Below are positions 3,541 through 33,560 of a DNA stretch of 64,000 nt, in pieces. Source of the stretch: Cornus controversa (Eukaryota; Streptophyta; Magnoliopsida; Cornales; Cornaceae). The notes under the pieces were generated by a model, which saw only the letters and a list, made by a program, of their open reading frames with translations, made no database searches and was not told where the DNA came from. A program made the position numbers and the translations under genes. Numbering within the stretch: position 1 is the first letter of the stretch; each line of letters begins with the position of its first letter. The stretch is from NCBI GenBank assembly GCA_026545225.1, contig CM048848.1, positions 23,352,806 to 23,416,805 on the forward strand, read 5' to 3'.

Positions 3541-4974
3541 ATGGAGGGGGCACAGCCCTCCTCCGACGGTAATCCGGTAGTTTCTTCTAGCCGGCCTGAG
3601 TCGCCATCACGCACCTCTTGGCGAAATCTCTTTGAGAGCGCCACGGATTCTTCTTTTCAGAATTTACAGTATCATGAAGGTTTACGTGCAACGAAAGTTA
3701 GTATTCAGTTAGAGGATGTCACTGATGAAATCGATTATTGGCAACATTCCGTGATTGGATATGTCATGGGAAAGAAGCCTTATTATCCCTTTTTCAAAAC
3801 TTTCATTGAACGCAGATGGAGCTCAGATATTACTCTTGTATATTTGAAAGAGGGTTTCTTTTTGGTTCGCTTCGACAGGGAGGCAGATATGCAGAAGATT
3901 TTAAGGCGAGTCCACACTTTTGAGGGACGCCCGATCATATTGAAGAAGTGGAGTACAAATGTAAATCTTGAGAAAGAAATCCTTGGGTCGGTTCCTATAT
4001 GGTTGCGGATTTTTGATTTACCTATCCATTGCAGGAATTCTACGGTGATATCGAAGGTATGTTCCCAATTTTCTAAGCCTATTTATATGGATGATCCCTC
4101 CGTTTCTAGAGACAGAGGACAGTATGTTAGAGTCATGGTGGAAGTTGATGTCCATGAAGACTTACCTGAAACGATGGTGGTGGATTTCCATGGGATTGAT
4201 TGCACAATTTATTTTCAGTATGAATGGAAACCTCAGGTCTGCTCATATTGTAAACGTGTAGACCACCTGGTTGATAAATGTCCACAGAAATATTTGCAAA
4301 AACCAACAAAGAACGGGGTCGGGAAATGGGTTGTTAAGGCTAATAGACGGCTCCGTCCTCAACAGCAGAATGACGAGAAAACTCAGGGGCCAGGGCCGGG
4401 TGATGCAAAGCATGCAAAGAATTCTTTTGCAGTTTTGGCTAATGTAGATGAAGGTGGGTTGCCTGTTCTGAACCTGGATGCTAAGATATCTATGCCTACT
4501 GGACAGAAGGTTATCCCAATGAGCGATAGTTCTTCCTCTTCACATGTAATTGGGCAGGATGTGGTTCAGAGGCCTGCAGAATCTGTTGAATATCCACAGG
4601 CTGCTAATATGTCTTCATCACCTGTTCAAGATGTGCTTCAACGGGCTAGAGAATTTGTTGGTTCAGCTCCTACTCTGGTTACGACTCCAGGATCTCTACC
4701 ATCCAAAGGAGTTCAAAAATCTGGTTTCAATGGCGGTACTGCTGTAGCTAAGCAGCATGGTGGTTCCTCTAGGAATACTGCTGTGATGCAGGAGGTTGAG
4801 TCTTTAAGTGGTGGGGATTCTCCTACGACTCGGGTTTCTCCTCAGCCTATTGGAGTGGACTCTAAATTGGTGGATAAAGGAAAAAAGAAAAAGAAGGAGG
4901 GTACAGAACCGGTGTTGCGGGTTACTAGAAGTAAACTTGCTGGTGGAGCTATTCCATCTGCCAATTCTCAATGA
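3541..4974 (+). CDS. LINE ORF1 protein, DUF4283 plus CCHC zinc knuckle
   Basis: 477 codons. Residues about 50-190 match the DUF4283-type domain of plant L1 ORF1 and related gag-like proteins (GFFLVRF, LKKWSTNVNLEKE, VPIWLRIFDLP). A CCHC knuckle, CSYCKRVDHLVDKC (C-x2-C-x4-H-x4-C), lies at about residue 234-247. The C-terminal half is low-complexity, Ser/Pro/Gly-rich, and ends in a basic stretch (KGKKKKKEG). The family role is binding element RNA in the ribonucleoprotein that carries ORF2. The stop TGA overlaps the ORF2 start in the sequence ATGA, which suggests coupled termination and reinitiation. The frame is intact with no internal stops. Confidence 0.88.
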   Translation: MEGAQPSSDGNPVVSSSRPESPSRTSWRNLFESATDSSFQNLQYHEGLRATKVSIQLEDVTDEIDYWQHSVIGYVMGKKPYYPFFKTFIERRWSSDITLVYLKEGFFLVRFDREADMQKILRRVHTFEGRPIILKKWSTNVNLEKEILGSVPIWLRIFDLPIHCRNSTVISKVCSQFSKPIYMDDPSVSRDRGQYVRVMVEVDVHEDLPETMVVDFHGIDCTIYFQYEWKPQVCSYCKRVDHLVDKCPQKYLQKPTKNGVGKWVVKANRRLRPQQQNDEKTQGPGPGDAKHAKNSFAVLANVDEGGLPVLNLDAKISMPTGQKVIPMSDSSSSSHVIGQDVVQRPAESVEYPQAANMSSSPVQDVLQRAREFVGSAPTLVTTPGSLPSKGVQKSGFNGGTAVAKQHGGSSRNTAVMQEVESLSGGDSPTTRVSPQPIGVDSKLVDKGKKKKKEGTEPVLRVTRSKLAGGAIPSANSQ

Positions 4975-7799
4975 TAGGGTGCTGGAATGTTCGGGGTCTA
5001 AATCGGCCTCATATGCAGAGAGAGGTAAAGCTTTGGATTGCCTCTGAAAAATGTGTTCTGGTCATTCTTGTTGAAACACGAGTAAAGGAATATAATTTTG
5101 CTAGAATTTCACATAATCTATGTCCTGGATGGAGTTGGATTGCCAATTATAATGCTCATCCAGGGGGTAGAATTTGGGTGGGATGGAATCCTGTAGTCCT
5201 TAATGTTGATGTTTTACACTCGGAAGGGCAACATGTTCATGTCAATTGCAAAGTCTTGTCTGGAGGGGTGTGCTGTTCTATATCCGCTGTATATGCAGCT
5301 AACACTGTTAGTGAGAGACGTGAGCTTTGGAAGAGTTTGAAGTCTCAATCGACTCTCATCACGGGTCCATGGTTGGCTGTTGGGGACTGGAATATGGTTC
5401 GATACCACGCTGAAAAGGTGGGTGGTAATCGTGTTCCTCAGGCTTTGATTGAAGAGTTCAATAATGTGCTAAATGAGGTGGGGTTAGATGATTTGCCAGT
5501 GAATAATGGTGCTTGGTCCTGGTCAAATAAACAATTTTTGCACAAAAGGATCTGTGCTAGACTTGATAGGGGACTTGTAAATACAGAGTGGCTGAACCAA
5601 TTTACAGATTCTAAACTCTCTATGTCGGTGGCGTCACTTTCGGATCATTATGGACTAGTGGTAAAATGGGCTTCCAACTGTTCTTCTGGTCCGAAACCTT
5701 TTAAATTCCTAAAGATGTGGTGTTTTATGCCGGAGGTGGAGACATTGCTTCTGGAGTCCTGGGGAGTTACAGTTACTGGAAATCCTATACATCAACTCCT
5801 CAAGAAGCTACGTATTTTTAAGAATCATATGACGGAGTGGAATAAAAAGAAGGGCCATCTTAATCAACAAATTTTGGACGCTCGAAAGGTGCTGGGTGAC
5901 ATACAACATCAGTTGTTGGCAGAGCCTTTAAATCCTAGTTTACTTCAAGCCGAGAAAGAGGCTTCGTTTAACTTGGAAAATATGTATGGTTTTGAAGAAA
6001 TGCTATGGGCTCAAAAATCACGGGTGACATGGACTAAAGAGAATGATAGATGCACTCGATTTTTTCACCAAAAAACTAAGCAGAGGCGCTCCAGAAATGC
6101 AATCACATCCTTATTAAATGAGGAGGGAGGTTATACTGAAGATCCTGTAGTGGTTAAAGAATGGTTGGTCCAATATTATGAGAATCTTTATAAGGCCTCC
6201 CCATCTACTTCATCAGATTTGTGTCCTGTTAGACGAAGGTTAGAAGAGCATGAGAAAGTGGGTCTTGAGAGAGAAGTTGACCATGTAGAAATTAAAGGGG
6301 TGGTCATGGCGTTGAGCCCGGATAAGGCTCCTGGTGCGGATGGGTTTCCTCCTCGGTTTTTTCAGAAATTTTGGCACGTGGTTGGGCAAGATGTGATTCA
6401 AGCAGTGAAATTTTTTTTCCTCACAGCATCTCTTCCTCAAGCAGTCAACAGTACTCTTATTACTCTAATCCCAAAGAAGGACCACGGCCTAAAGATGTCA
6501 GATTATCGGCCTATTTCTCTTTGTTCTACTTTATATAAGATCATCTCTAAGGTCATGGCAAATAGAATGGGGACTTGTTTACATAAGTTGATTGGTCCTG
6601 AACAATCAGCTTTTATTAAAGGGCGACGTATTCATGATAACATAATGTTGGCTTCAGATATGGTGAGAGGTTTTAACCACAAGCGGGGGGCAACTAGTAT
6701 GGCAGTGAAGGTGGACTTAAGGAAGGCTTATGATTCAATATCCTGGACGTTTATTCTGCATGTTTTGAAGCTACATGGTTTTGGTGATCGGTGGATAAAA
6801 TGGGTGACAACCTGTATTACTTCTCCTAAATTCTCGCTTCTTATAAATGGTGTGCCGGCGGGTTTTTTTAATTCTGGACGAGGTCTTAGGCAGGGTTGTC
6901 CCCTGTCCCCCTTGCTCTTTACATTAGTCACGGAATATTTTAGTAATTTGATGAATGTGGCAGTTGCTGATGGTTCAATAGCCCTTTCTAAAGTTGCAAA
7001 GAAAACGGGTATTAAACTTTCCCATATTTTTTATGCTGATGACCTTTTTGTGGTGGTGAAAGCTGATGTACCTACTGCCCAGGGACTGATCGCTGTTCTT
7101 CGTAAATTTTCCACTGATACAGGTCTTCATGCTAGTAAAGAGAAGAGTGAAATCATCTTCTCTAAGGCGGTGAGGCGGTCCAGAACTTTGGAACGAATTC
7201 TTCCTTTTAAAAGAGGTACTTTCCCTCTTCAGTATTTGGGCTTGCCTTTAAATGATACCGTGCTTAAGAAATCTCATTTTAATCCTCTGATGGATAAAAT
7301 TTCGTCGAGATTAACGAGTTGGAATACGTTGAATTTATCGCTAGCGGGAAGAATTGAATTGATTAAATCAGTGGTATTATCTTTTATCTACTATTGGGCA
7401 TTTGGTTTTAAGATTCCATGGTCTTGTAGACTACACATTGAGAGAAAGATTAAAGCTTTTATTTGGGGTCATGATGACACAGTTCACAAATTACATTTTC
7501 TTAAATGGTCTAAAGTTACCCTTCCAAAATCAGAAGGTGGCTTTGGCATTCGAAAAATTGGGGAGTTAGATTTTGCTGCCAAGTGTATGCTGGTGTGGGA
7601 TTTTCTCACAAATGGAGAAAAATTATGGGTTGACTGGTTCAAGAAAAGATATGTTAAGGGAAGTTTCTGGTCTTGCATTCCGAAAACCTCTTCGTCTTCA
7701 ATTTGGTTAAGTATTCTGCAGGCTCGAGAGTTTATGATCACGCAGATCTCTTACAAGATTGGTGATGGGTCTCAAATTGGTCTATTAACAGACCCTTAG
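4971..7799 (+). CDS. LINE ORF2: endonuclease and reverse transcriptase
   Basis: 942 codons. Residues 1-230 form an apurinic-type endonuclease (exo-endo-phos fold): CWNVRGLN at the start, ETRVK, AVGDWNMV, RLDRG and SLSDHYG carry the expected catalytic Asn, Glu, Asp and His. Reverse transcriptase spans about 445-720, with DKAPGADGFP, DYRPISL, VDLRKAYDS, GLRQGCPLSPLL and the catalytic box FYADD at about 688. A thumb and connection region follows. The start ATG overlaps the ORF1 stop. The frame ends at TAG 7797-7799, about 240 codons before the expected C-terminus. The missing zinc-binding end lies directly downstream, so this copy probably makes a truncated enzyme. Confidence 0.9.
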   Translation: MIGCWNVRGLNRPHMQREVKLWIASEKCVLVILVETRVKEYNFARISHNLCPGWSWIANYNAHPGGRIWVGWNPVVLNVDVLHSEGQHVHVNCKVLSGGVCCSISAVYAANTVSERRELWKSLKSQSTLITGPWLAVGDWNMVRYHAEKVGGNRVPQALIEEFNNVLNEVGLDDLPVNNGAWSWSNKQFLHKRICARLDRGLVNTEWLNQFTDSKLSMSVASLSDHYGLVVKWASNCSSGPKPFKFLKMWCFMPEVETLLLESWGVTVTGNPIHQLLKKLRIFKNHMTEWNKKKGHLNQQILDARKVLGDIQHQLLAEPLNPSLLQAEKEASFNLENMYGFEEMLWAQKSRVTWTKENDRCTRFFHQKTKQRRSRNAITSLLNEEGGYTEDPVVVKEWLVQYYENLYKASPSTSSDLCPVRRRLEEHEKVGLEREVDHVEIKGVVMALSPDKAPGADGFPPRFFQKFWHVVGQDVIQAVKFFFLTASLPQAVNSTLITLIPKKDHGLKMSDYRPISLCSTLYKIISKVMANRMGTCLHKLIGPEQSAFIKGRRIHDNIMLASDMVRGFNHKRGATSMAVKVDLRKAYDSISWTFILHVLKLHGFGDRWIKWVTTCITSPKFSLLINGVPAGFFNSGRGLRQGCPLSPLLFTLVTEYFSNLMNVAVADGSIALSKVAKKTGIKLSHIFYADDLFVVVKADVPTAQGLIAVLRKFSTDTGLHASKEKSEIIFSKAVRRSRTLERILPFKRGTFPLQYLGLPLNDTVLKKSHFNPLMDKISSRLTSWNTLNLSLAGRIELIKSVVLSFIYYWAFGFKIPWSCRLHIERKIKAFIWGHDDTVHKLHFLKWSKVTLPKSEGGFGIRKIGELDFAAKCMLVWDFLTNGEKLWVDWFKKRYVKGSFWSCIPKTSSSSIWLSILQAREFMITQISYKIGDGSQIGLLTDP

Positions 7800-8519
7800 T
7801 GCGATGGTTTAATGATGTTCCAAAAATTTGGCAGAAGGTCTTGTCGAGATTTTGCCAGGCAGGCAAACCTTGCGTCTATAATTGAGGCTGGTCAGTGGCA
7901 CCTTCCTGATGCTCCACCGGCTGTTATCGCCTATTTCCAGTCAGTTCGGATATGGGGTGGTCGAGATGTCATACAATGGAAGCATGGGTCATGTTCGTTT
8001 CAATCAATCTGGAATGCTAGCCGTGTTTCTGGGCCACGGGTTCCTTGGTATAATCTGGTGTGGAGTAAGTGTAGAATCAGAGCTTCGTTTACCACAGCTC
8101 TAGTGCTTCACAATGCCATCCCGTCATTCGTTAACTTGCAAAGGAGAGGGATCCAGATTCCGTCCATTTGTCATTCATGCTATGCTGGTTCCGATACGGT
8201 GGATCACGTGTTCGTGCACTGCGCATTCGCGGTTGAGATATGGCATTTTATTTTCGATATTATTCATATCTCCTATCCTATCTTCCTCTCTATGTCACAT
8301 TTACTGGATTGGTTCCTACATCACACAAGTTCAAATACTATGCGGAGTAAAATGTTGAAATGTCTCTTCCCCACAGTGATTTGGTCCATTTGGGGTCAAC
8401 GAAATGCAGCATTACATCTCGGTTTTAAGAAGACTTCACATGAAGTGGCGCAAGGCATCCTTTTAGAGTGTCTTTTGCTTTTGGACCTACAGATTCATGA
8501 TCTTTCTCTAATCTTTTAA
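7800..8519 (+). pseudogene. LINE ORF2 C-terminus (zf-RVT), cut off by stop/frameshifts
   Basis: From 7812 the frame is the same as ORF2 and stays open to 8519 (235 codons). It contains the zinc-binding domain typical of plant LINE C-termini: WSKCRIRASFTTALVLHNAIP, then RGIQIPSICHSCYAG and VDHVFVHCAFAVEIW, with C-x2-C...H-x4-C spacing. Just before it, between about 7767 and 7850, a different frame reads WSINRPLVRWFNDVP, which fits this region of the family better than the ORF2 frame does. The damage is therefore probably a deletion near 7765 plus a compensating indel near 7840, rather than one point-mutation stop. Confidence 0.75.
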
Positions 8520-10196: not shown

Positions 10197-12788
10197 TCAA
10201 TCCAAAGAGTAGATATGAATTTCAAGTCCATCATTTCCCATGTTCTGTTGTTCTTGTTGAATTTGCCTGGCAGAGTCTTCAGCAGCACCGCTACACCATC
10301 GCAACCGGATCATCTCTAGAGTAGACATGTCCCCCAAACAAGATGGAATCTCTTCAAGCCGTTGACAGTCATCAAAAACCAGTGTCTGAAGTTTGCCAAA
10401 GTGAGCACTGGAGGTTTCCCATTGCTGAATATCAAGGCCTTGAAATTTCAAGAATTTGAGTTTGTCAAACTCACCATCATTTGTTTCCCATCTTGGTCCC
10501 TCGAATGCTTTATATGATAATTTAAGAACCTCAAGGTTAGGTAAGCTTCCAAGGGATGAGATTTCCATCCAAGGAAGACGACAGTTTGACAAAGTAAGGC
10601 TTTTGAGATTTCGGGGTAGCATGTCAAGATGAGGAAACCTTCCGGATCCATCGTAAACTAAATTCAGTGTATTAAGGTCAGGAAAGTCAAATTTAGGAAA
10701 ACTAGTACACTGACATTTTAGTTTCTTAAGATTCGGAAAACATGCCAAGATCTGACTGTACCTATGGTTTGTACGTTATGCAATACCAAAGGTTGCTCAT
10801 GACTGGTTTCACGAGGGATCTCAATAAGCCGTCTAGTATACACATGCCTCAACTTCACCATCTCCCGGATATCAGGTAAAAACAATGAACCTTTAGGTCC
10901 ATCAACAATAAGGGTTTCAGGTTCCAGAGGTAAAAATTTTGTGATGGCCGGAAAAACTCATTGTCTTGCTCAACATAAAGTGCCAAATACCTCAAGTGAA
11001 CTAGCCGATTGACGTCCTCTGGAAAGAAGAGGATTTTGATGGATAATAAATTCAACACCCGAAGAAGTTCGAAGGATTGACAAACAAATGACACATCAGT
11101 CTCAGGTAGGTTATAAAATGAATGGCCAAAGGACAAGAAAGATCGAATGTGAATCTCATAACTTGAACCATATTCAACAAGGTTATCGTGGATGCATAGG
11201 CGACGCTGCTTATGTGGAAAGTGATTTGAAGAAGAAGAATTTTGTTCATACGAGGGAATCTGCCTAAGAAAATTCTCTTCATGAGCTTTTATCAAGCATA
11301 AATCACGCAAAAGGTCATGGACACGACATGCTTTGACCCCACCATCAGACCTTTTTCTAGAAACAACTACTAGACTTCTATTAATTAAATCCATCAAGTA
11401 ATCATATGCCACTTCCTCCAGGCTTTTCTGCTCATTTTGTCGTATAAATCCCTCGGCAACCCATAACCATGTCAATTGCTTAACAGAAATTTCATAGTCT
11501 TCAGGGAATCTTCCAAAATAGAGGAAGCATGGTTGCAAGAGATGAGGCAATTTATTGTAACTAAGTGCTAGCGTGTCCATGTACTCCTTTGGGTCACTTT
11601 CAATACAAGAACCTACATTTTCAGCAACATACCTCCACCAATCTTGTGTCTTGTCATTCTCTGCTAGAAGCCCCGATAGCACAACAATTGCAAGCGGTAA
11701 TCCTCGGCATTTTCTTGCAATTTTCTTTCCAATTTCCACCAAATCTGTTGGACAAGTTTCTTTGCAAAATGCCTTAATTTGCAATAGTTCCCAGCTTTCT
11801 TCTTCATTTAGAAACTGCAAATGGTAAGGTTTAGCATGCAATGCCACCGCCACATTCACATGCCGACTGGTGAACATAATTCTACTTCCATTATTGTCTT
11901 TTGGAAAATATCTTTCCAAGCTTCTCTATTCCACAAATAATCCATGACAATGAGATATCTAAAACCCTTTAGGCATTTGTAAAGCTCACCACCTAACTCA
12001 TCGTCATTTAGCTGGCCAATTTTACTTGGAAGTTGGATTTGTGCAGAATTGAAAATGCTAAGCAGTAAGTCTCTCTTGTGGTACACTTGAGAGACATAGG
12101 TCCATGCTCTCTTGTAAAAGTGATGTGCAATCAAAGGATCATTGTACACTTTTCTAGTTAGAGTTGTCTTGCCAAGTCCTGGCATTCCAATGATTGGGAT
12201 GACTTTTAGCTGCTTTTCAAATTCGTTAGTAAGCAAATCTAGAATCGTCTTTGTGTCTTCACGGAAACCCACAACAGTTTCTTCCTCCATGACTGGGCTT
12301 GTGGCTCTTGACAATCTTTGATGGGAAGGCTTTTCTGTTTTTGGGCCTCCGATGCCATGCATCTCCCTCTTAAAAATCAGCTTGATTCTTCTTCTGATAG
12401 ACTTAATCTCTTTTTTGGCATTATTCAGCTTTTCGTTAGAAGTCTCCACAATTTCCCGCCAATGAAAGGGAATAATTAAGTTTTCCATAAAGGATGCTCG
12501 AGAATCCCTCGTTGTAGGACCAGAGCAAAATCTTGCTTTAGGCATTACAACAAAGAATACAAGGAAGTCAAGAATATTTTTGACCTTGTGAGTCACGTCT
12601 CTAATTCTTGCCACAAGATCTTTCACCTCTTGCTCATTTCGTTTCTCCTCTGAATCCTTGAGAAACATTTGTAGGAATTGCATCTCCGCATAAAACCATT
12701 TGACTTGCTCCTTCTTAATCAACGGGTTGTCGCAGTTTATCAACTGCACCAAGTTCTCCAAGAAAAAATCAACAGCAGCGTCAGTCAT
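10197..12788 (-). pseudogene. R1-like CC-NB-ARC-LRR resistance gene, frameshifted
   Basis: Three open pieces on the minus strand make one NLR: 12788-11856 (coiled coil and NB), 11919-10855 (ARC and first LRRs) and 10748-10197 (last LRRs and C-terminus). Visible motifs are an Rx-type coiled coil (start MTDAAVDFFLENL), the P-loop GMPGLGKTT at about residue 200, RNBS-B GSRIMFTSRH, GLPLAIVVLSG, RNBS-D CFLYFGRFPEDYEI and VHD (CRVHDLLRDLC). The style matches the R1 late-blight family. Frame changes occur near 11910, near 10935 (apparently one G lost in the L-E-T-L region) and near 10750. Kinase-2 reads LIVMDYLW, so the second Asp of the Walker B pair is Tyr. A functional receptor is unlikely. The start is chosen because MTDAAVDF is the family N-terminus. 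Confidence 0.88.
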
Positions 12789-21040: not shown

Positions 21041-24000
21041 TTCTAATTTTTATTACAAATAATGTTTTTTGATGAAACTAATTTTGTTAAATAAAATATT
21101 CCGATAACTTTAATTTGAATATAACTTAGGTTATGTTTTAAGTACTTAAGACATATAAGTTATGATTTTTTCAATTCATGTGTACACACTTAAAGTAAAT
21201 TTTCACAACTTTGAAATCATTTTACATACCGTTAAAATGTTTCTTCACACATTTAAAACATATAAATTTTAATGTTTTTTAAAAATATTTATAAAAAAGA
21301 TTTGTGCTTAAATGTTTCTAAAAGAATGAAAAGAAAAAAAACATAGAAAATTATTTATTTTTCATGTGTGAAAATTATTGCAGGTGTGTGGAAAAGTAAT
21401 TTAAATATGTAAAAGTGTACTTTAAGTGTGTGAAAAATGATTTTAAGTGTGTGTAACTGAGGCTTAAAAATGTGAATATCAACAATAATGATTTATTTGT
21501 GTGAATGAGTACAATCGAAAAAGCATATTAATCTCAAATTGATTTGACTTTCACACCACACTTAAAGTATATTTTCACACCAGTAAGTCAGTTTTCATAA
21601 GTTTACGGTTATTTTTCACACTCAAAACCAATATTTAAATTTTTATGTTTTTTCTTTTCAAATTTTTCAGATACATTTAGACACGTCCCAAAAGTGTTTC
21701 TACACAAATAAAACATAACATTTGATTTTCAGATTTTTTAAGACTCATGTCGATGAACTTAAAGTCCATTTCCACATATTTAAAGCCCTTTTCACACACT
21801 TAAAGTATTATTCCACACATTGAAAATATATAATTTTTAATGTATTTTTCTTTTCAAAAATTTTTAGAAAAATTTAGACACATCCAATAAGTGAAACACA
21901 AATAAAACATAACATTTAATTTTCACATTTATTAAGACTCATGTTCACGAACTTAAAGTCCATTTTTACACATTTAAAATACTTTCCACACATTTAAAGT
22001 GTTTTTCCACATAATTAAAACAAATATTTTTTATGTTTTTTATTTCCAATTTTTTTAGTAACTTTTAGCCATATTTGAAGGATGTTTTTGCACAAATAAA
22101 TAATACAACTTTATATTCACATTTTTTAGTCTCATTTTTACTCATTTTTTACACATTTAAAATACTTTTCCACACATTTAAAACAAATATTTTTTTATGT
22201 TTTTTTTTTCTCTAATTTTTTTTTAGGAACTTTTAGGAATATTTGAAGGATGTTTTTGAACAAAAGAAATCATAAAAAATTATATTGTCATTTTCATTCA
22301 CTTTTTCCACACATTGAAAAACATTTCCACACACTTAAAACAAATAATTTTTTTATGTTTTTTCTTTCCAAATTTTTTAAGAAATTTTAGGCATATTTGA
22401 AGAATGTTTTTGCACAAAAAAATCATAAAAATTTATATTCAAATTTTTTAGTCTCACTTCTATTCACATTTCACACATTTAAAGTACATTTCCACACACT
22501 TAAAACAATATTTTTTTATGTTTTTTCTTTCCAATTCTTTTAGGAACTTTTAGGCATATTTGAAGAATGTTTTTGCACAAGAAAATCATAAAAATTTATA
22601 TTAAAATTTTTTAATCTCAGTTCTATTTACATTTCACACATTTAAAGTACTTTTCCACACACTTAAAATAAATATTTTTTTATATTTTTTCTTTCCAATT
22701 TTTCTAGGAGGTTTTAAGGATATTTAGAGGATCTTGTTGCACAAAAAAATCATAAAAATTTATAGTCACATTTTTTAATATCATTTTTATTCACTTTCTA
22801 CACATTTAAAGTACTTTTCACACATTTAAAGTACTATTTCACACACTTAAAATAAATATTATTTTATGTTTTTGTCCAATTTTTTTAGAAACTTTTAAGC
22901 ATATTTGAAGGATATTTTTACACAAAAAAATCATAAAAATTTATATTCTCATTTTTATTCACTTTCCACACATTTAAAGCACATTCTACACATTTAAAGT
23001 ACTTTTCCACACACTTAAAACAGATATTTTATTATATTTTTTCTTTATAATTTTTTTAGGAACTTTTAGGCATTAAATGAAGGATGTTTTTGCTCAAAAA
23101 AATCATAAAAATTTATATTCACATTTCTTAGTCTCATTTTTATTCACATTCCACACATTTAAAGTCTTTTCCACACATTTAAAGTACTTTTCCACATACT
23201 TCCACCAAATATTTTTTATGTTTTTTTTCCTAATTTTTTTTAGTAACTTTTTTCCTAATTTTTATGTTTTCGTACAAAAAAAAACATAAAAATTTATATT
23301 CACATTTTTTAGTCTCATTTTTATTCACTTCCCAAACATTTAAAGTACTTTTTCACACATTTAAAGTTCTTATCCACACATTAAAACAACTATTTTTTTA
23401 TTTTTTATTTTCTAATTTTTTTAATAAATTTTAGGCATATTTAAAGGATGTTTTTGCACAAAAAATATTTATAAAAAATATATTCACATTTTTTAGTCTT
23501 ATTTCTTTTCACACATTTAAAGTACTTTCCACAGATTTAAAGAACTTTTCCACATTTAAAACAAATATTTTTTTTATATTTTTTCTTTCCAATATTTTTA
23601 GAACTTTTAAGTATATTTGAAGAATTTTTTTGCACAAAAAAATCATAAAAATTTATATTAACATTTTTTAGTCTGATTTTTATTCATTGTCCACACATTT
23701 AAAGTACTTTTCCACACACTTAAAACGAATATTTTTTATGCTTATTCTTTTCAAATTGTTTTAGGAAATTTTAAGCATATTTAAAATAAGCTTTTGCACA
23801 AAAAAAATAATAATAAATTATATTCATATCTTTTAGTCTTATTTTTATTCACTTTCCACACAATTAAAGTAATTTTCTAAACATTTAAACTATTTTTCCA
23901 CACACTTAAAACAAATATTATTTTATGTTTTTTTTCCCAATTTTTTTAGTAACTTTTAGCCATATTTGAAGGGTGTTTTGGCACAAAAAAATTATAAAAA

Positions 24001-25060
24001 CTTATATTCACATTTTTTAGACTAATTTTTATTCATTTTCCACACATTTAAAGTATTTTTCCACACACTTAAAACAAATATTTTTTTATATTTTTTTTCT
24101 CCAATTTTTTTAGGAACTTTTAGGCATATTTGAAGGATGTTTTTACACAAAAGAATCATAAAAGTTATATTCAAATTTTTTAGTCTCATTTTTATTCAAT
24201 TTTCACACATTTAAAGTACTTTTCCACACACTTAAAACAAATATTTTTTATGTTCTTTATTTCTAATTTTTTAGGAACTTTTAGGGATACTTGAAATATA
24301 TTGTTGCACAAAAAAATCATAAAAATTTATATTCATATTTTTTAGTCTCATTTTTATTCACTTTTCACACATTTAAAGTACTTTTCCACACACTTAAAAC
24401 AAATATTTTTTTATGTTTTTTTCCAATATTTTTAGGAACTTTTAGGCATATTGGAAGGATGTTTTTTCACAAAATAATCATAAAAATTTATATTCACATT
24501 TTTTAGTCTTATTTTTATTCACTTTTCACATATTTAAAGTATTTTTTCATACATTTAAAGTACTTTCCACACACTTAAAACAAGTATTTTTTTATGTTTT
24601 TTTTTGTCAAATATATATATATATATATATATATTTGTAGCTTTTAGCCATATTTGAATGTTGTTTTTGCACCAAAAAAATCATAAAAATTTATATTCAC
24701 ATTTTTTAGTCTTATTTTTATTTACTTTCCACACATTTAAAGTATTTTTTCACACATTTAAAGTACTTTTCTAGACTTAAAACAAGTATTTTTTTATGTT
24801 ATTTTTTAAAAATTTTGAACAACTTTTAGTCATTTTTGAAAGATGTTTTTGCACAAAAAAAATCATAAAAGTTTATATTTACATTTTTTGTCTCATTTTT
24901 ATTCACTTTCCACACATTTAAAATACTTTTCACACATTTAGAGTACTTTTCCACACACTGAAAACAAATATTTTTTTTGTGTTTTTTCTTTCCAATTTTT
25001 TTAGGAACTTTTAGGCATATTTGAATGATGTTTTTGCACAAAAAAATCATAAAGATTTAT
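21041..25060 (+). repeat. Left arm: about 170-bp tandem monomer array
   Basis: Monomers run in one orientation from about 21.55 kb to the central ORF. The aacttttaggcatatttgaagg word recurs at about 22226, 22541, 22707, 22890, 23058, 23243, 23418, 23599, 23762, 23949, 24112, 24273, 24436, 24641, 24818 and 25003. A short segment at 21361-21520 is in the opposite orientation (aagtgtgtgaaaaa). An (AT)n run lies at about 24610-24633. No gene is present; small frames here read only simple repeat sequence. Confidence 0.85.
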
Positions 25061-25062
25061 GA

Positions 25063-25326
25063 ATGGGAACTACTGATCTGGAATCTTGGGAGTGGTCTAA
25101 AGGTGCTCATAGAGCAACTGGTTATGACATGGATCTTGGTTATAAATTGCCACCACCAACACGTGAACATGAACCTTCTTCACCATTGCCCGATGGTGAT
25201 AAAGGCAATGCACCGGTTACGAAGCATGAATTTTACAGGGATATGAGACGAATGAGACTTCTGATGGAGAAACACCATGAAGATTATGACAACTCAATTG
25301 ACGTTCTTAGGACGAAAGTTCATTAG
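25063..25326 (+). CDS. Unknown ORF at the centre of the inverted-arm element
   Basis: 87 codons (start MGTTDLESWEWSKGAHRATG). After TAG the same frame continues about 25 more codons (KFRNYANSPAFYQDGNWEED) to a second stop. The protein is charged. It has a proline-rich middle (YKLPPPTREHEPSSPLP) and a helical Arg/Met/Glu-rich end (FYRDMRRMRLLMEKHHEDYD) that could form a coiled coil. Base composition is far less AT-rich than the arms, so it looks coding or captured. I do not recognise the family. It may be the last exon of a lost transposase or accessory protein, or a captured host fragment. Confidence 0.4.
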   Translation: MGTTDLESWEWSKGAHRATGYDMDLGYKLPPPTREHEPSSPLPDGDKGNAPVTKHEFYRDMRRMRLLMEKHHEDYDNSIDVLRTKVH

Positions 25327-25689
25327 AAGTTTCGTAATTATGCCAATTCACCTGCATTTTATCAAGATGGCAATTGGGAAGAAGATGTTGGTGGGAGTCG
25401 TGGTTGAGTGGAAGGCAGGATGATATCTAATGTTAACTTTTGTCTAAATGTCTAATGTTAAGATGATGTTTAATATATTGGACATTATTGCTTTTGAAAT
25501 ATGGTGTCTTTTCAACTTATCTTTTTGTTAATAAATGAATGAAAATGTTAAATGTTTTGATTTACATATACTTTGTTATGTTATAAAAGACTACTTCTAA
25601 TATTGCATCTAATTTTCAAGTGCAATTAGATTTGACTGGAATATTCATACATAAAATATTACCAAATCTGAATATGTAACTAATTCAGA

Positions 25690-27650
25690 TATTTTGCATT
25701 CATTTGTGACAAACACATCCTTCAAATATGGCTAAAAGTTGCTAAAAAAAATTAGAGACAAAACATATAAAAAAATATTTGTTTTAAGTGTGTAAAAAAT
25801 TACTTTAAATGTGTGGAAAGTTAATAAAAATGAGTCTACAAAATGTGAATATAAATTTTTATGATTTATTTGTGCAAAAATATCCTTCAAATATCTCTAA
25901 AAGTTCCTAAAAAAATTGGAAAGAAAAATATAAAAAATATTTGTTTTAAGTGTGTGAAAAATACTTTAAATATGTTAAAAGTGAGTAAAACTGAGACTAA
26001 AAAATGTGAATATAAATTTTTATGACTTGTTTGGTGTAAAAATATCCTTCAAATATTCCTAAAAGTTCCTAAAAAATTGGAAAGAAAAAACATAAAAAAA
26101 TATTTGTTTTAAGTGTGTGGAAAAGTACTTTAAATGTATGGAAAGTGAATAAAAATGAGACTAAAAAATGTGAATGTAAATTTTTATGATTTATTTGTGC
26201 AAAAATATCCTTCAAATATGCCTAAAAGTTGCAAAAAAAAAGGAAAGAAACAATATAAAAAATTATTTATTTTAAGTGTGTGGTAAATTACTTTAAGTGT
26301 GTGAAAAAGTACTTTAAATGTGTGAAAATGGCCTTAAAGTATGTGAAAAGTAAATGAAAATGAGACTAGAAAATGTGAATATAAATTTTTATGATTTATT
26401 TGTGCAAAAACATCATTCAAATGTGCCTAAAAGTTGCTAAAAAAATTGGAAAGGAAAACATAAGAAATATTTGTTTTAAGTGTGTGGAAAGTTACTTTAA
26501 GTATGTGAAAAAGTACTTTAAATGTGTGGAAATGGCCTTTAAGTATGTGGAAAGTGGGTAGAAACGAGACTAAAGAATGAAATATAAATTTTTATAATTT
26601 ATTTGTGCAAAAACATCCTTCAAATATACCTAAAAGTTGCTAAAAAAATTTGAAAGAAAAAACACAAAAAATTATTTGTTTTTAGTGCATAGAAAATTGT
26701 TTTAAGTGTGTGGAAAAGTACTTTAAATGTGTGAAAATGTACTTTAAGTTTGTGAAAAGTGAGTAGAAATGAAACTTAAAAATGTGAATATAAAATTTTA
26801 AGAGTTATTTGTGTGAAAACATCCTTCAAATATACCTAAAAGTTGCTAAAAAAATTAGAAAGAAAAAACGTAAAAAATTATTTGTTTTCCGAAAGTGGAT
26901 AATTACTTTTAGTGCGTGAAAAATTATTTTAAATGTGTGAAAATGGTTTTTAATTTCATGAACACGAGTCTTAATAAATGTGAAAGTTAAATGTTATGTT
27001 TTATTTGTGTGGAAACACTTATTGGATGTGTTTAAGTGTTTCTAAAAAATTTGAAAAGAAAAAAAATAAAAAATAAAATATTAGTTTTGAGTGTGTGAAA
27101 AATAAGCGTAAACTTGTGAAAATAGACTTTACTGGTGTGAAAATATACTTCAAGTGTGTGGACAAATCAATTTAAGATTAAAATGCTTTTTCGATTGTAC
27201 TCATTCACACAAATAAATTATAACAATTGATGTTCACATTTTTAAGCCTCACTTACACATACTTAAAATCATTTTTCACATACTTAAAAATACATTTCTA
27301 CATATTTAAAGCACTTTTCTACAAACTGAAAATAAATAATTTTGTTATATTTTTTTCTTTTTATTTTTTTATATAAATATTTTAAAAAAATATTAAAATG
27401 TATATGTTTTAAGTGTCTGAAGAAACATTTTAACGGTGTAAAATGACTTTAAGGTTATAAAAAATTACTTTAACTATGTAGTCATGAATCGAAAAAATTA
27501 TAATTTTTTTGTATTAAATTAAAACAAAGTCTAAGTTATACTCAAATTGAAGCTTTCAGAATATTCTATTTAACAAAATTAATTTCATCAAAAAATACTA
27601 TTTGTAGTAAAAGTTATGAACTGTCAAATCAAAAAGAAGAAAAATGAAAA
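25690..27650 (-). repeat. Right arm: inverted monomer array
   Basis: This is the reverse complement of the left-arm monomers (aaatatgcctaaaagttgc and ttttaagtgtgtggaaa words). Copies of the core word lie at about 25727, 25893, 26063, 26215, 26423, 26623, 26830 and 27030. The outer 300 bases again contain one monomer in the opposite sense (27100-27340), mirroring the left arm. Confidence 0.85.
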
Positions 27651-28994: not shown

Positions 28995-31730
28995 ATGGAA
29001 ATAGAAGCTGCCATTCTTTCTAACATTGTGACGGAAATTGTGAAGAAGTTGGGGTCTGTTGCTTCCGAAGAGATCCAATCGGTGTGTGGTCTCAAAACAG
29101 ATTCTCACAAAATAGAGGACACCATTTCTACTGTCAAAGCGGTACTTTTCGATGCGCAACAGCAACATGCCACAAACCATGAGGCTAGTGATTGGCTTGG
29201 AAAGCTCAAAGACGTGGTTGATGATGTTGATGACTTGCTGGATGACTTTTCAACACAAGATTTGTGGCGGAAGGAGATAATGATTTCCAACAAAAAGCCC
29301 AAGAAGGTACGCATTTTATTTTCAAGCTCAAACCAGCTGTTTTTTCGTGTTAAGATGAGTCTCAAAGTTGAAGCTTTTCGCGTTAAGATGATTCGCAAAG
29401 TTAAAGCTTTTCGTGTTGAGACGTGTCGCAAAGTTAAAGACATTCGAGAGAGACTAGATGCCATTGCTGAAACTAACATCAAATTTCACTTTAGTCTTCA
29501 ATGGCCTATGGATATGCAAGTTGAGAATATTTTGAGCTATGATCACCTCCCCTCGCATCTAAAACAATGCTTTGCAATTTGTTGCTTATATCCTAAAGAT
29601 TGTGAAATTGATAAGCAACAACTGATCCAATTGTGGAGTGCACATAGATTTATCCCATCGTTGTCATCTTCATTAGATGAAAATGAAAATCAAGATATGG
29701 ACGATGTTGGAGATTTGTATTTTATGACTTTATTAAGGAGCTCTTTTTTTCAAGATGATACAATATTAGATGAATTTGGTAATATAATAAGTTGTAAAAT
29801 GCATCATTGTATGCATGACCTTGCAGTTTCAGTTGCGGGAAGTGAGAGTTCCATGGTAAATTTGGGCGCAGAAGATGTTTCTTCAAAAATTCGTCACATG
29901 TCATTTGGTTGGTGTCTATCTATAGGTAGATCATGTAAAATTCCTGCCACGTTGCTTGGAGCTATCAAGACAAGAACATTTTTTTTGACAGCTCAAGGAT
30001 ACGATTCAATTAAAATTTCTTATGAACCGGAGAATCCACTTTATGCAGCAATTCTTTCTAACTTTAAAAGGTTACGCGTGTTGGATCTGCATAACTTGGG
30101 GATGAACATGGTGCCGAGTTGCATAAGTAAGTTAAGGCATTTAAGGTATCTTGATCTCTCTTGTAATGGTGGCATTCAGATTCTGCCAAATTCCATTACT
30201 AAGTTGCGAAATTTGCAAACTCTAAAACTTTTTGGTTGTTCTCTCAAAGAATTGCCGAGAGATATTAGAAAATTGGTGAGCCTTAGGCATCTGGAGCTTA
30301 GTTTTTATAGTCGTTTGACTGACATGCCGCGTGGATTGGGACAGCTGACTTCTCTTAGAACGTTAAACCGGTTCATTGTGGGTCGATGCAACAGGTTAAG
30401 GGAATTGAAAGATTTAAACAATCTAAGGGGAGAGCTATCAATTGAACTACCAAAGAGGCTACCATTTTCTCAAAGGCCAAGATTAAAAGAAGCAGAGGAA
30501 GCGAACTTGGAGGGAAAAGAATTCCTTCAGTCTTTGAAATTAAATTTTGGCAACAACTCCTATGATGACGATGATGATGATGGTGAGTTAGGGCTAGTGT
30601 TGGAAGCTCTCCAGCCACATGCAAATATGAAAAAGCTAAAAATAAAAGATTATAAGGCTGTGAGATTACCAACATGGATGTCGTCCCTCTCAAATCTTGT
30701 TGAAATTTCTTTATCACAGTGTATGGGATGCAAGTATCTTCCAAAAATTGAGCATCTTTCTTGTCTCAAAAGTCTTCATCTTCATGACTTATTTTCTCTG
30801 GAGTACATAGATGATGACAACAATTGTGGTGTTAATAATGACTTGCTCTCTTCTTCTCCATCTTCTTCAAGGGAGCCAACAACAACCACATTCTTTCCAT
30901 CACTGAAACATATCAATTTCTCGAATTTGCCTAATTTGAAGGGATGGTCGAGGAATAAAGAAGCACTGCTACCATCATTTCATTGTCTTCTTGAATCAGT
31001 AATCTGGTTCTGCCCCAGGTTAACATCAATGCCTCTGCAACCAACTGTTGTAAAACTAAAATTTGGGTGTGTCAGCGAGAAGGTAGTACAACACCAGTTA
31101 CTGACAACATTAGTTGCAACCACATCTTCTTCACTCGTTCCTCTTTCCAACTTAAAGGAACTGGTAATATGTGGCATCGATCGCCTGGTTACTCTGCCGG
31201 AGGGACTTCTCACTTCTCTACAGAAACTAGAGATTGTATCATGTGAAAGACTAACCTCTCTGTCTAGAGGGATGCGACATCTCACCGCCCTCATGTCCCT
31301 GGAGATCCACGACTGCAAAGAGATTGATTTGTCAGATGGTGATGATGATGGCATGCATTTTCAAGGCCTCAGGAACCTAACTTCTCTGTTTATCTCCGAA
31401 AATCCCAAGTTGGAGTCTCTTCCTGCGGGGCTTCAACACGTTACCACTCTGCAAGATCTATCTATTCTGGATTGTGAAAATTGGAAAGGTTTGCCGGAAT
31501 GGGTAGGCAACCTCACATCACTTCAACGTCTTTGGATTCGTCCATACCGCAAATCTACATCACTGCCCGAAGGGATGCGTCGGCTCACTGCATTACAAAA
31601 ACTGGAAATTGAAGATTGTTCACAGGAGCTGAAGGATAGATGCCAAAAGGAAAGGGGGGAAGATTGGCCTAAGATTGCTCACATCCCAGAGGTTATAATA
31701 GAAGGTATCCTTCTTAATTTGAACCCTTGA
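28917..31730 (+). CDS. NLR-like protein: coiled coil + winged helix + LRR, nucleotide-binding domain missing
   Basis: 937 codons, uninterrupted. The likely start is the in-frame ATG at 28995 (MEIEAAILSNIVTEIVKKLG), the usual RGA-type N-terminus, giving 911 residues. From the 28917 start, residues about 30-190 are an Rx-type coiled coil (EDTISTVKAVLFDAQQQ, WLGKLKDVVDDVDDLLDDF, IRERLDAIAE). At about 207 the chain jumps to the winged-helix block SYDHLPSHLKQCFAICCLYP. The P-loop, RNBS-A, kinase-2, RNBS-B and GLPLA are all absent, which removes roughly 230 residues in frame. The MHD region reads KMHHCMHDLA, with His for Asp. LRRs run from about 387 to the C-terminus (LRVLDLHN, LRHLRYLDLSCNGGIQILP, LTSLQRLWI). 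Three 11-residue repeats lie near 140-176. Without an ATP/ADP switch it cannot act as a standard NLR. It may be a decaying deletion allele, or it could make a protein with another role. Confidence 0.85.
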   Translation: MLQPQPHTIQILVLLLNQTIPVTTPKMEIEAAILSNIVTEIVKKLGSVASEEIQSVCGLKTDSHKIEDTISTVKAVLFDAQQQHATNHEASDWLGKLKDVVDDVDDLLDDFSTQDLWRKEIMISNKKPKKVRILFSSSNQLFFRVKMSLKVEAFRVKMIRKVKAFRVETCRKVKDIRERLDAIAETNIKFHFSLQWPMDMQVENILSYDHLPSHLKQCFAICCLYPKDCEIDKQQLIQLWSAHRFIPSLSSSLDENENQDMDDVGDLYFMTLLRSSFFQDDTILDEFGNIISCKMHHCMHDLAVSVAGSESSMVNLGAEDVSSKIRHMSFGWCLSIGRSCKIPATLLGAIKTRTFFLTAQGYDSIKISYEPENPLYAAILSNFKRLRVLDLHNLGMNMVPSCISKLRHLRYLDLSCNGGIQILPNSITKLRNLQTLKLFGCSLKELPRDIRKLVSLRHLELSFYSRLTDMPRGLGQLTSLRTLNRFIVGRCNRLRELKDLNNLRGELSIELPKRLPFSQRPRLKEAEEANLEGKEFLQSLKLNFGNNSYDDDDDDGELGLVLEALQPHANMKKLKIKDYKAVRLPTWMSSLSNLVEISLSQCMGCKYLPKIEHLSCLKSLHLHDLFSLEYIDDDNNCGVNNDLLSSSPSSSREPTTTTFFPSLKHINFSNLPNLKGWSRNKEALLPSFHCLLESVIWFCPRLTSMPLQPTVVKLKFGCVSEKVVQHQLLTTLVATTSSSLVPLSNLKELVICGIDRLVTLPEGLLTSLQKLEIVSCERLTSLSRGMRHLTALMSLEIHDCKEIDLSDGDDDGMHFQGLRNLTSLFISENPKLESLPAGLQHVTTLQDLSILDCENWKGLPEWVGNLTSLQRLWIRPYRKSTSLPEGMRRLTALQKLEIEDCSQELKDRCQKERGEDWPKIAHIPEVIIEGILLNLNP

Positions 31731-31855
31731 TATATCCACCATAAAAATCTTCATATTGTTTTTTTCATAACCAACTATTCATCTTGTTCATTCTTCCTCT
31801 CTTAATCTGTTCAAATTTCAGCTGAATATTTGATGTGGACATTGACATTGAAACA

Positions 31856-31906
<51 letters not shown>

Positions 31907-32253
31907 TTCCAATAATACTGACATTGACATTCTTCCTCTCTTTTTCTATAAGGGCTTGACGAGATAGATAGCTGGGCAGGGAGTTCTGACACTTCCACCT
32001 AATAGCAGCGGGCTGGCCGTGAATCAAATCAATCTTTCTCATACCGTTCTTTCAAGTGAGCCCCTCTGTCTCTTGTTGTTCCAGTTCTTCTTCTTCTTCA
32101 TTATTTTTTCCCTCCATTTCGAGCTTCATAACTCATGGAATTTCATTCTCAAATAACTCATTCCAATAATACTTGTCATCAATTTTTTGAGAAGTAAAAT
32201 TACTTGCATCACTTATAATAATGGTAAGGAGTAATATCCATCTTTTTCCCAAA
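31731..32253. other. 3' flank of the NLR, no gene
   Basis: Contains an (AT)n run and CT-rich stretches. Short frames across the (AT)n run encode only Ile-Tyr repeats and are artefacts. Confidence 0.5.
31859..31904. repeat. (AT)n microsatellite
   Basis: About 23 uninterrupted AT units downstream of the NLR stop. Confidence 0.95.
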
Positions 32254-32545
32254 TAGAGTGAACAATTTTGTTTTGATGTCTCTAAAGGAAAATATTGAAT
32301 CCAAAGCTTGTTTTTATTTTCTTTTTTCGAAGACCCTTTTATCAGCTAAAGAATGTCTGGCATTAGAGATTCACATAAATTCATTTTCTTGCATTCTTTT
32401 TCCAACCCTATGATAAAGCATCATGTCTACGAATCTTGTGAAAATATCATTGTTGACATCCACATGAATTGTTAAAATAACCTTCAGTGGTAGCTTCCTA
32501 GTTATTTTCTCCCCTGCCAAATTACACAAAATTAAAAAGAAATTT
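32254..32545 (+). repeat. 292-bp direct duplication, copy 1
   Basis: From tagagtgaacaattttgttt to attaaaaagaaattt. It matches 33561-33852 almost base for base, with only a handful of substitutions and no length change. No coding sequence was recognised. Confidence 0.9.
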
Positions 32546-33560
32546 CAACAGGTTTTAATGTTTTATATATATATCACATGCATCTCACTAGTTTTTGACT
32601 TTTATATACTTAAATAAAACAAGAGTCACCGCAAGAAAAATGATTATTAACAACATAATATTTACAAGGTACATAATTATATGTTGTTAATTATATTAGT
32701 CTATCTTTGGTAAAATAAATAAATAAATAATATCAGTCTACAGTTTATGATCATTAACTATGTTATTATGTGTGGGTGTTATCAATCTTGGTAAGGTGCC
32801 TTTTTTAGTTTCTTCAAATGGTCCCACTTCTCATCTATACTTTATTTTGGGGACAATGCTTGAGTCCTATCCTAGCATAACCAATTTCATCCTCTCTCTC
32901 TCTGCTTATGTGGTTCAATAAAAGTTAAACAATGGTTAAAAACTAATTATTTTTTAAAGACGGACATTACCCATCTTCTCACGGGTTAAACCCGTTTTTA
33001 TTCCTCAGTGATTGTGACTTTGTTCTCCCTCTCTTCCTCTCTCTCTCAACAAGTCACTGTCTTCCTCCACAGCAAAGCTCGCAGACAGCATTCCTCCCCT
33101 GCTCACCTCTGCTTCCATTCCCAAGCCCCAACTTCAATCACGAAATTAAAAGCCATGAATTTTTTTCCTAGAACTTTCTGTATAAAAATTCTCCTGTTTA
33201 AATTTTCTCCATGTATCTACTTAACAATGGTTAAGTGATTTTCTCTTTAGACCATTGAACCTTCTATCTGATGAACAACACAATCTCCCAAATTAAATGC
33301 AGTAGGACTTCCAAGTATATATTTCACCTAAAAATGGAAATTCAAAAAATAAAAATAAATAAATAAATAAATAATAAAAAGTTCCAAACGCTTGACATTG
33401 CTAAATGCATTTGGAATTCTAGGTATATATTTTCATAAAAAGGATGCAATCAACTGTTAAAATGATTTCCATAAACACACGGGAATATTGAAAGAGTTTT
33501 GAGCTGAGGAAGAACTTTAGCAACTTTACTGAATATGTAAGGCATAGAATTGTGGGAAGC
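32546..33560. other. Intergenic, no gene
   Basis: AT-rich sequence with a (TAAA)n-like run near 33345-33378 and CT-rich stretches near 33025. The frame at 33008-33238 shows no family or signal. Confidence 0.4.

Follow-up and report, generated by a model that had tools for sequence, protein, structure and literature searches.

Can a nucleotide-binding leucine-rich-repeat receptor (NLR) of the coiled-coil class (CNL) be kept by a plant after the loss of its entire nucleotide-binding (NB) domain, or is such a frame freshly damaged? The NB-ARC is regarded as the switch of NLR receptors. The question was raised by a frame of 911 open codons in a 64,000-nucleotide stretch of Cornus controversa DNA (the window; C4:23352806-23416805 within a 771.7-Mb assembly), for which the in-frame removal of the whole NB domain had been proposed in the original prediction. 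From the comparisons given below, a switchless receptor was probably kept, rather than freshly damaged; retention is favoured because related copies share the loss and evolve like protein-coding genes. The parts of the frame were as follows.

28995..31730, forward strand: CNL frame without an NB domain (NB-less), 911 amino acids (aa) in one open frame, with ATG at 28995 and the stop at 31728-31730
29028..29303, forward strand: Rx_N coiled coil, aa 12-103 (Pfam PF18052, E 2.4e-19)
29342..29439, forward strand: three 33-bp tandem units between the coiled coil and the junction (repeat finding and alignment)
29522..29523, forward strand: main deletion junction, where 729 bp (243 codons; P-loop through ARC1) are gone (DNA alignment with the NB-containing paralogues L021 and L022)
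29523..29532, forward strand: nine kept bases, then a second in-frame loss of 18 bp ahead of TTGAGC (same alignment)
29532..29825, forward strand: start of the winged helix (LSYDHLPSHLKQCF) and WH_DRP, aa 198-277 (Pfam PF23559, E 2.2e-20)
29799..29807, forward strand: MHD position, which reads MHH (coordinates read off the sequence)
30048..31709, forward strand: leucine-rich-repeat (LRR) region of the R13L1/DRL21 type, ends approximate (PF25019, E 5.1e-44; PF23598, E 5.4e-43)

The proposed removal was borne out by the domain content. Rx_N, winged helix and LRRs were found, and NB-ARC (PF00931) gave no Pfam match in the window protein at E ≤ 1, a negative limited by HMMER filters that discard most matches above about E 0.1. 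Rx_N was present in the window copy and in two sister copies, L002 and L004, from both of which PF00931 was absent at E ≤ 0.01. The LRR families in the window protein began at aa 352 (Pfam). When the protein was compared with PDB chains, the best stretches of CNL chains started at its aa 179/180, which paired with residue 406 of ZAR1, 428 or 397 of Sr35, 419 of MLA13, 396-398 of NRC2, 394 of NRC3 and 395 of NRC4; the exceptions were shortened chains, namely an NRC2 construct (180 to 263) and At5g66890 (177 to 4). Because these stretches begin at residues 394-428, the segment between the coiled coil and the winged helix is what is absent. The predicted lack of P-loop and GLPLA in the frame also held, the strict patterns for both matching across the window only in a second CNL, which lies on the opposite strand at 10.8-12.8 kb. 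A strict kinase-2 pattern had zero matches anywhere in the window. The features of a canonical CNL (NB-ARC with P-loop, kinase-2 and GLPL; MHD) were missing from the window copy. Modelling of the window protein alone with AlphaFold2 returned an unusable model (mean predicted local distance difference test, pLDDT, 39.5; predicted template-modelling score, pTM, 0.33).

The window copy (W) was one of four genome matches, of at least 93 to the window protein, that spanned the junction between coiled coil and winged helix; all four lay on C4. Genome searches scored the best candidates only, and match counts are lower bounds. The other three were L002 (C4:21.41 Mb; 95% protein identity to W; frame open), L003 (C4:19.31 Mb; 95% protein identity; a single TAG at codon 403) and L004 (C4:28.67 Mb; 91% protein identity; frame open; match split by the search into two pieces), so that three of the four full-length NB-less copies were free of stops and frameshifts and L003 had its one stop. 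With a query of the first 178 residues only, the same four copies ranked at the top of at least 129 matches. Thirty-seven of the at least 93 matches had their first aligned residue at 180, directly behind the junction. Eight of these loci were fetched (L021-L028); in seven of them the open frame includes a P-loop, and that of L027 is shorter and starts within the NB-ARC. The frequency of NB-less CNLs was not given by a genome search with PF23559, as the best 150 of the 565 candidates each scored more than 87 bits, so that the list ended above the NB-less copies (73 bits for W).

L004 had, at its match to window position 31207, a 72-bp in-frame insertion resembling one repeated LRR unit. Second copies truncated at the 5' end were located about 10 kb from L002 and from L003, respectively: L005 (C4:21417011-21418711; one stop) and L006 (C4:19301150-19302850; three stops). 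Their similarity ends near window position 31418 and picks up again about 4.4 kb on.

Of the paralogues with an NB domain, the closest were L021 and L022 (C1:72.94 and 72.97 Mb). Each is one uninterrupted open frame, of 1101 and 1221 aa respectively, and has Rx_N, NB-ARC (E 7e-49 and 7e-48), WH_DRP and LRR; the MHD was intact and the 33-bp repeat absent in both, and L021 terminates early within the LRR. Their DNA identity to the NB-less copies was 82-83% over shared codons. Alignment to these paralogues placed the junction, predicted at 29480-29535, after 29522, with the lost codons starting directly behind the linker and reaching as far as ARC1 extends, and placed the second small loss after 29531. 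Both breakpoints were identical in all four NB-less copies. The left flank ends in CAAGTT and the lost segment in CAAGAT, an imperfect short repeat that would fit an end-joining deletion.

Other changes were shared by the four copies as well. Two extra 33-bp units in the linker (22 residues) were common to all of them and lacking in the five NB-containing paralogues compared; the MHD position read MHH in 4/4 NB-less copies versus MHD in 5/5 of those paralogues. The start codon was two codons upstream of the paralogues' start in all four, and the position of the paralogues' ATG read ATA or AGA (by eye). The description of the coiled coil as a normal one of the RGA type was thus right as to the Rx_N domain but not as to its surroundings, with three 33-bp units behind it and a start displaced by two codons. 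Over the first 21 residues, identity to the MADA consensus (MADAxVSFxVxKLxxLLxxEx, as given in the part of PMC6944444 available) was 1/13 in all four and 5-7/13 in five NB-containing relatives, scored as an ungapped identity count and not with a hidden Markov model; an N terminus of the MADA executor type was lacking in 4/4 NB-less copies.

Synonymous divergence was 0.024-0.078 among the four copies versus 0.23-0.27 to L021/L022, and by this measure the loss is dated between those divergences, before the copies separated. The suggestion of a recent deletion allele did not hold, as four diverged copies share both breakpoints. Judged from the alignments, the ancestor, an RGA-type CNL, lost the nucleotide-binding domain (NBD) and helical domain 1 (HD1) in frame, after which the gene multiplied on contig C4.

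Selection after the loss was estimated with a codon model (F3x4, kappa free, eight sequences) in which the branches formed three classes: the stem, on which the loss occurred, the crown, among NB-less copies, and the background. Crown omega was 0.57 and omega = 1 was rejected (2dlnL 11.45, p 0.0007); omega was 0.78 on the remaining branches. With L003 excluded, crown omega was 0.58 (p 0.0018; 0.41-0.93 in 37 bootstraps). The LRR was the sole region significant alone, with a crown omega of 0.58 (versus 1, p 0.005) versus 0.97 for the background (p 0.017). Stops were also fewer than expected. The four copies had one stop in at least 173 substitutions versus 7.1 expected under neutrality (P 0.007), and without the window copy, which had been picked for being open, there was 1 stop in 139 substitutions versus 5.7 expected (P 0.023). 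The dead copies L005 and L006 had three stop events in about 73 substitutions (summed branch lengths), about the neutral rate (4.1%); the difference between 3/73 in the dead and 1/173 in the NB-less copies had a Fisher p of 0.08. According to this model, moderate purifying selection has acted on the NB-less copies since the loss, which favours some retained function, be it as a decoy, a regulator or an LRR scaffold, the roles that had been suggested, or as something else.

Coding indels among the four copies amounted to nine events, all multiples of three, and 1/4 of the flank indels between W and L002 was a multiple of three. The in-frame indels are weak evidence because the dead L005 and L006 show in-frame indels only (6 and 12 bp versus W, none between the two; 1698 bp), and the figure of (1/3)^9 = 5e-5 overstates that evidence, several of the events lying in GAT or other short repeats prone to triplet slippage. 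Gaps of 70 bp (end of the L003 flank) and of 11 and 4 bp (L005/L006 comparison) were cut-point artefacts. The 3' flank of L004 was unalignable (48% mismatches) and was left out of the indel and divergence figures.

As to function, the interpretation placed first, tentatively and a little short of an even chance, is that the plant has kept a CNL gene without its NB domain (coiled coil, winged helix and LRR), the product of which would most likely depend on a partner that has an NB domain and serve as a modulator or co-receptor. With P-loop, kinase-2 and MHD gone, nucleotide would be neither bound nor exchanged, and the protein would therefore be expected not to open into a resistosome alone. 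The LRR and the winged helix would provide a binding surface, and the coiled coil would associate with an NB-bearing CNL, either to damp the activity of that receptor or to offer it a surface for recognition. An RPP13-like CNL 16 kb upstream is a candidate partner, though broken in the window. By analogy two modes fit: an executor in trans, which is the mode proposed for wheat RXL in the available part of PMC11933841, or a modulator or co-receptor in the manner of NRCX and NRG1C. The second mode is favoured over the first because the MADA-like start was lost and the LRR is constrained; the loss of that start points more to a modulator or sensor than to an executor, in which the Cornus gene would differ from RXL.

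RXL was the nearest counterpart. As described in the accessible sections of PMC11933841, it consists of a coiled coil and an LRR with only the winged helix of the NB-ARC kept, wheat needs it to resist mildew, it enters hetero-complexes with Pm5e, which is its partner in head-to-head orientation, and its coiled coil triggers cell death; among 122 species, those sections report orthologues only from Pooideae and Miscanthus. The Cornus copies resemble this account of RXL in having an Rx-type coiled coil, in the loss of NBD and HD1 (P-loop to GLPL) with winged helix (RNBS-D) and LRR kept, in their derivation from a CNL and in variable copy number. Unlike RXL as there described, they have a 22-residue linker insert, MHH and a changed N terminus, and no intact close head-to-head partner lies in the window. 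The host is not a grass, as its genome has at least 150 TIR-domain matches and grasses are not known to have TIR-NLRs. Given the non-grass host and paralogues in the same genome at 65-71% identity to the window protein, the loss was probably independent of that in RXL. The combination of domains had been called unusual; wheat RXL, however, already has coiled coil, winged helix and LRR in the same order (PMC11933841, in the part available). In literature on NB-less non-grass CNLs, RXL was the sole case of the same architecture among the matches listed, surveys that count "CC-LRR" classes, such as PMC9519389 and PMC5821885, aside.

Other NLR-derived proteins with a badly truncated NB-ARC are rice Pb1 and AtNRG1.3 (NRG1C); Pb1 is likened by its description in RefPlantNLR only. 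RXL, Pb1 and AtNRG1.3 are listed as functional NLRs with truncated NB-ARC in the excerpt of RefPlantNLR available (PMC8559963), in which 94 of 1,615 extracted proteins were without an annotated NB-ARC and 44 of these also without a P-loop domain, so that further unnamed NB-less cases may exist. NRG1C, as far as PMC12315475 was available, has neither its N terminus nor the greater part of the NBD, and is an inhibitor that outcompetes NRG1A for EDS1-SAG101, which binds the part of NRG1A from winged helix to LRR. Regressive evolution deprived NRCX of Nicotiana benthamiana of its executor activity, and the protein modulates its relatives (PMC9851556, available part); by the same account it keeps P-loop and MHD intact, and the Cornus copies have neither. 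Rice RGA4L, described with "CC and LRR domains", was rejected as a case of the same architecture, its NB-ARC being kept according to the available text of PMC12576433.

Several results weigh against a retained gene of this kind. Omega on the stem was 0.90 and not different from 1. The crown value of 0.57 is mild, with a bootstrap range reaching 0.93, and omega = 1 was not rejected for the coiled coil plus linker (0.63) or the winged helix (0.56) alone. The contrast in the LRR may partly reflect fast evolution of L021/L022 (pairwise LRR dN/dS 1.38). L003 carries a stop, and the dead L005 and L006 are likewise without a frameshift. The choice of modulator over executor is based on motif loss, and the candidate partner is open at 2/4 loci, with both genes open at L004 only. 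Some of the four NB-less sequences may be uncollapsed haplotypes: TIR matches on C4 at 21.77 and 23.78 Mb and CNL matches at 22.89 and 24.91 Mb have a spacing of about 2 Mb, like W and L002 (TIR-domain matches in the genome numbered at least 150). Haplotypes among the four would cut the copy number and leave the shared junction and the selection result standing.

A slowly decaying pseudogene family, in which the gene died with the loss and its copies still have open frames through youth or homogenisation by gene conversion, draws on several of these points (the stem omega, the stop in L003, and dead copies that, like the open ones, are frameshift-free over the stretch compared). It also draws on the 3' flank. 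In the flank (window 31550-32700), W had 2 and 5 differences in 968 bases from L002 and L003, with 2.8% in the coding sequence and 6.6-7% in the 5' flank, and this flank is likely a recent conversion tract starting near the gene end. The copies have probably exchanged sequence by gene conversion, which could make the branch lengths inaccurate. Against decay stand the crown omega below 1, the deficit of stops, which persisted without the window copy, and the gain of stops by the dead copies at about the neutral rate. On balance, decay is rather unlikely.

A role with a linked partner was weighed from the neighbouring CNLs. That of the window is as follows.

10855..12788, reverse strand: divergent RPP13-like CNL (Rx_N, NB-ARC, winged helix) in two overlapping frames, candidate neighbour (Pfam and locus comparison)

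Every NB-less copy (4/4) had an RPP13-like CNL upstream in divergent orientation, at start-to-start distances of 16.2 kb (W), 19.6 kb (L003), 25.7 kb (L002) and 33.1 kb (L004). Type A of this CNL was found at W, where a 10-bp loss near 11921 frameshifts it relative to the copy beside L003, and at L003 (894-codon open frame); type B was found at L002 (one TAA) and L004 (open). Most members of this CNL family lie on C4 (57/61 matches), and the surrounding DNA is largely shared between loci. The linkage is suggestive at most, because C4 is full of RPP13-like CNLs and flanking blocks were copied along. That the NB-less gene and the divergent CNL form an obligate pair in cis was accordingly treated as no more than a rival, the neighbour varying in type and being frameshifted at W and interrupted by a stop at L002.

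It is possible, and on these comparisons unlikely, that a non-grass plant independently evolved the arrangement of RXL, with the NB-less protein maintained as the switchless half of a mixed complex whose other half is an RPP13-type CNL with its NB domain. The more specific proposal of an RXL-like executor, in which the coiled coil would give the pore-forming helix and the NB-ARC of a linked head-to-head CNL would be the backbone of the mixed complex, is doubtful. It has in its favour the architecture shared with RXL, which in the available account works head-to-head with Pm5e, and the upstream CNL at all four copies. The distances are large, however (16-33 kb, with the window gap partly of satellite repeats), the partner's place is taken by two CNL types, the window CNL is frameshifted although the NB-less frame is open, the abundance of the family on C4 and the copied flanks mean that linkage alone proves little, and the MADA-like start was lost.

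An assembly artefact or an NB domain in another exon is very improbable, and no positive sign of either came to light: collapse was ruled out by identical breakpoints in four diverged sequences, a separate exon by the closest NB-containing paralogues being single open frames from coiled coil to LRR, and when each half of the other CNL served as a tblastn query on the window (E ≤ 10), no weighty NB-like match turned up beyond that CNL.

Further observations concern the surroundings. An isolated coiled-coil fragment of 55 residues, 93% identical, lies at C4:19331207-19331371, between L003 and its divergent CNL. The window at 21600-27000 contains satellite units of about 160-205 bp, in one orientation to about 25060 and reversed from about 25700, which form a large inverted array partly shared with other loci. 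At 3541-8519, adjoining frames of 477, 942 and 235 aa are reverse-transcriptase-like and by eye belong to an element of the long interspersed nuclear element type. Between about 5.5 and 37.6 Mb, C4 carries a large expansion of RPP13-like CNLs with indications of duplication at a spacing of about 2 Mb, segmental or from uncollapsed haplotypes.

The architecture is already known from wheat RXL, and Cornus is probably a separate, non-grass case. RefPlantNLR defines the NLR family by the NB-ARC, with RXL and AtNRG1.3 added as exceptions (PMC8559963, in the excerpt available), so that genes such as the NB-less CNL are easily discarded as fragments. The four copies, the dead pieces and the intact paralogues in one genome form a natural test set for a CNL without the nucleotide switch. 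If the retention of the gene is true, purifying selection on an NB-less CNL with several copies in a non-grass plant would mean that some such "fragments" are working proteins, and that the RXL architecture is able to arise repeatedly. If the protein is in addition the switchless half of a mixed complex, removal of NBD and HD1 with the winged helix kept would be a path that evolution can take more than once to a new NLR role, one that is neither sensor, helper nor pseudogene.
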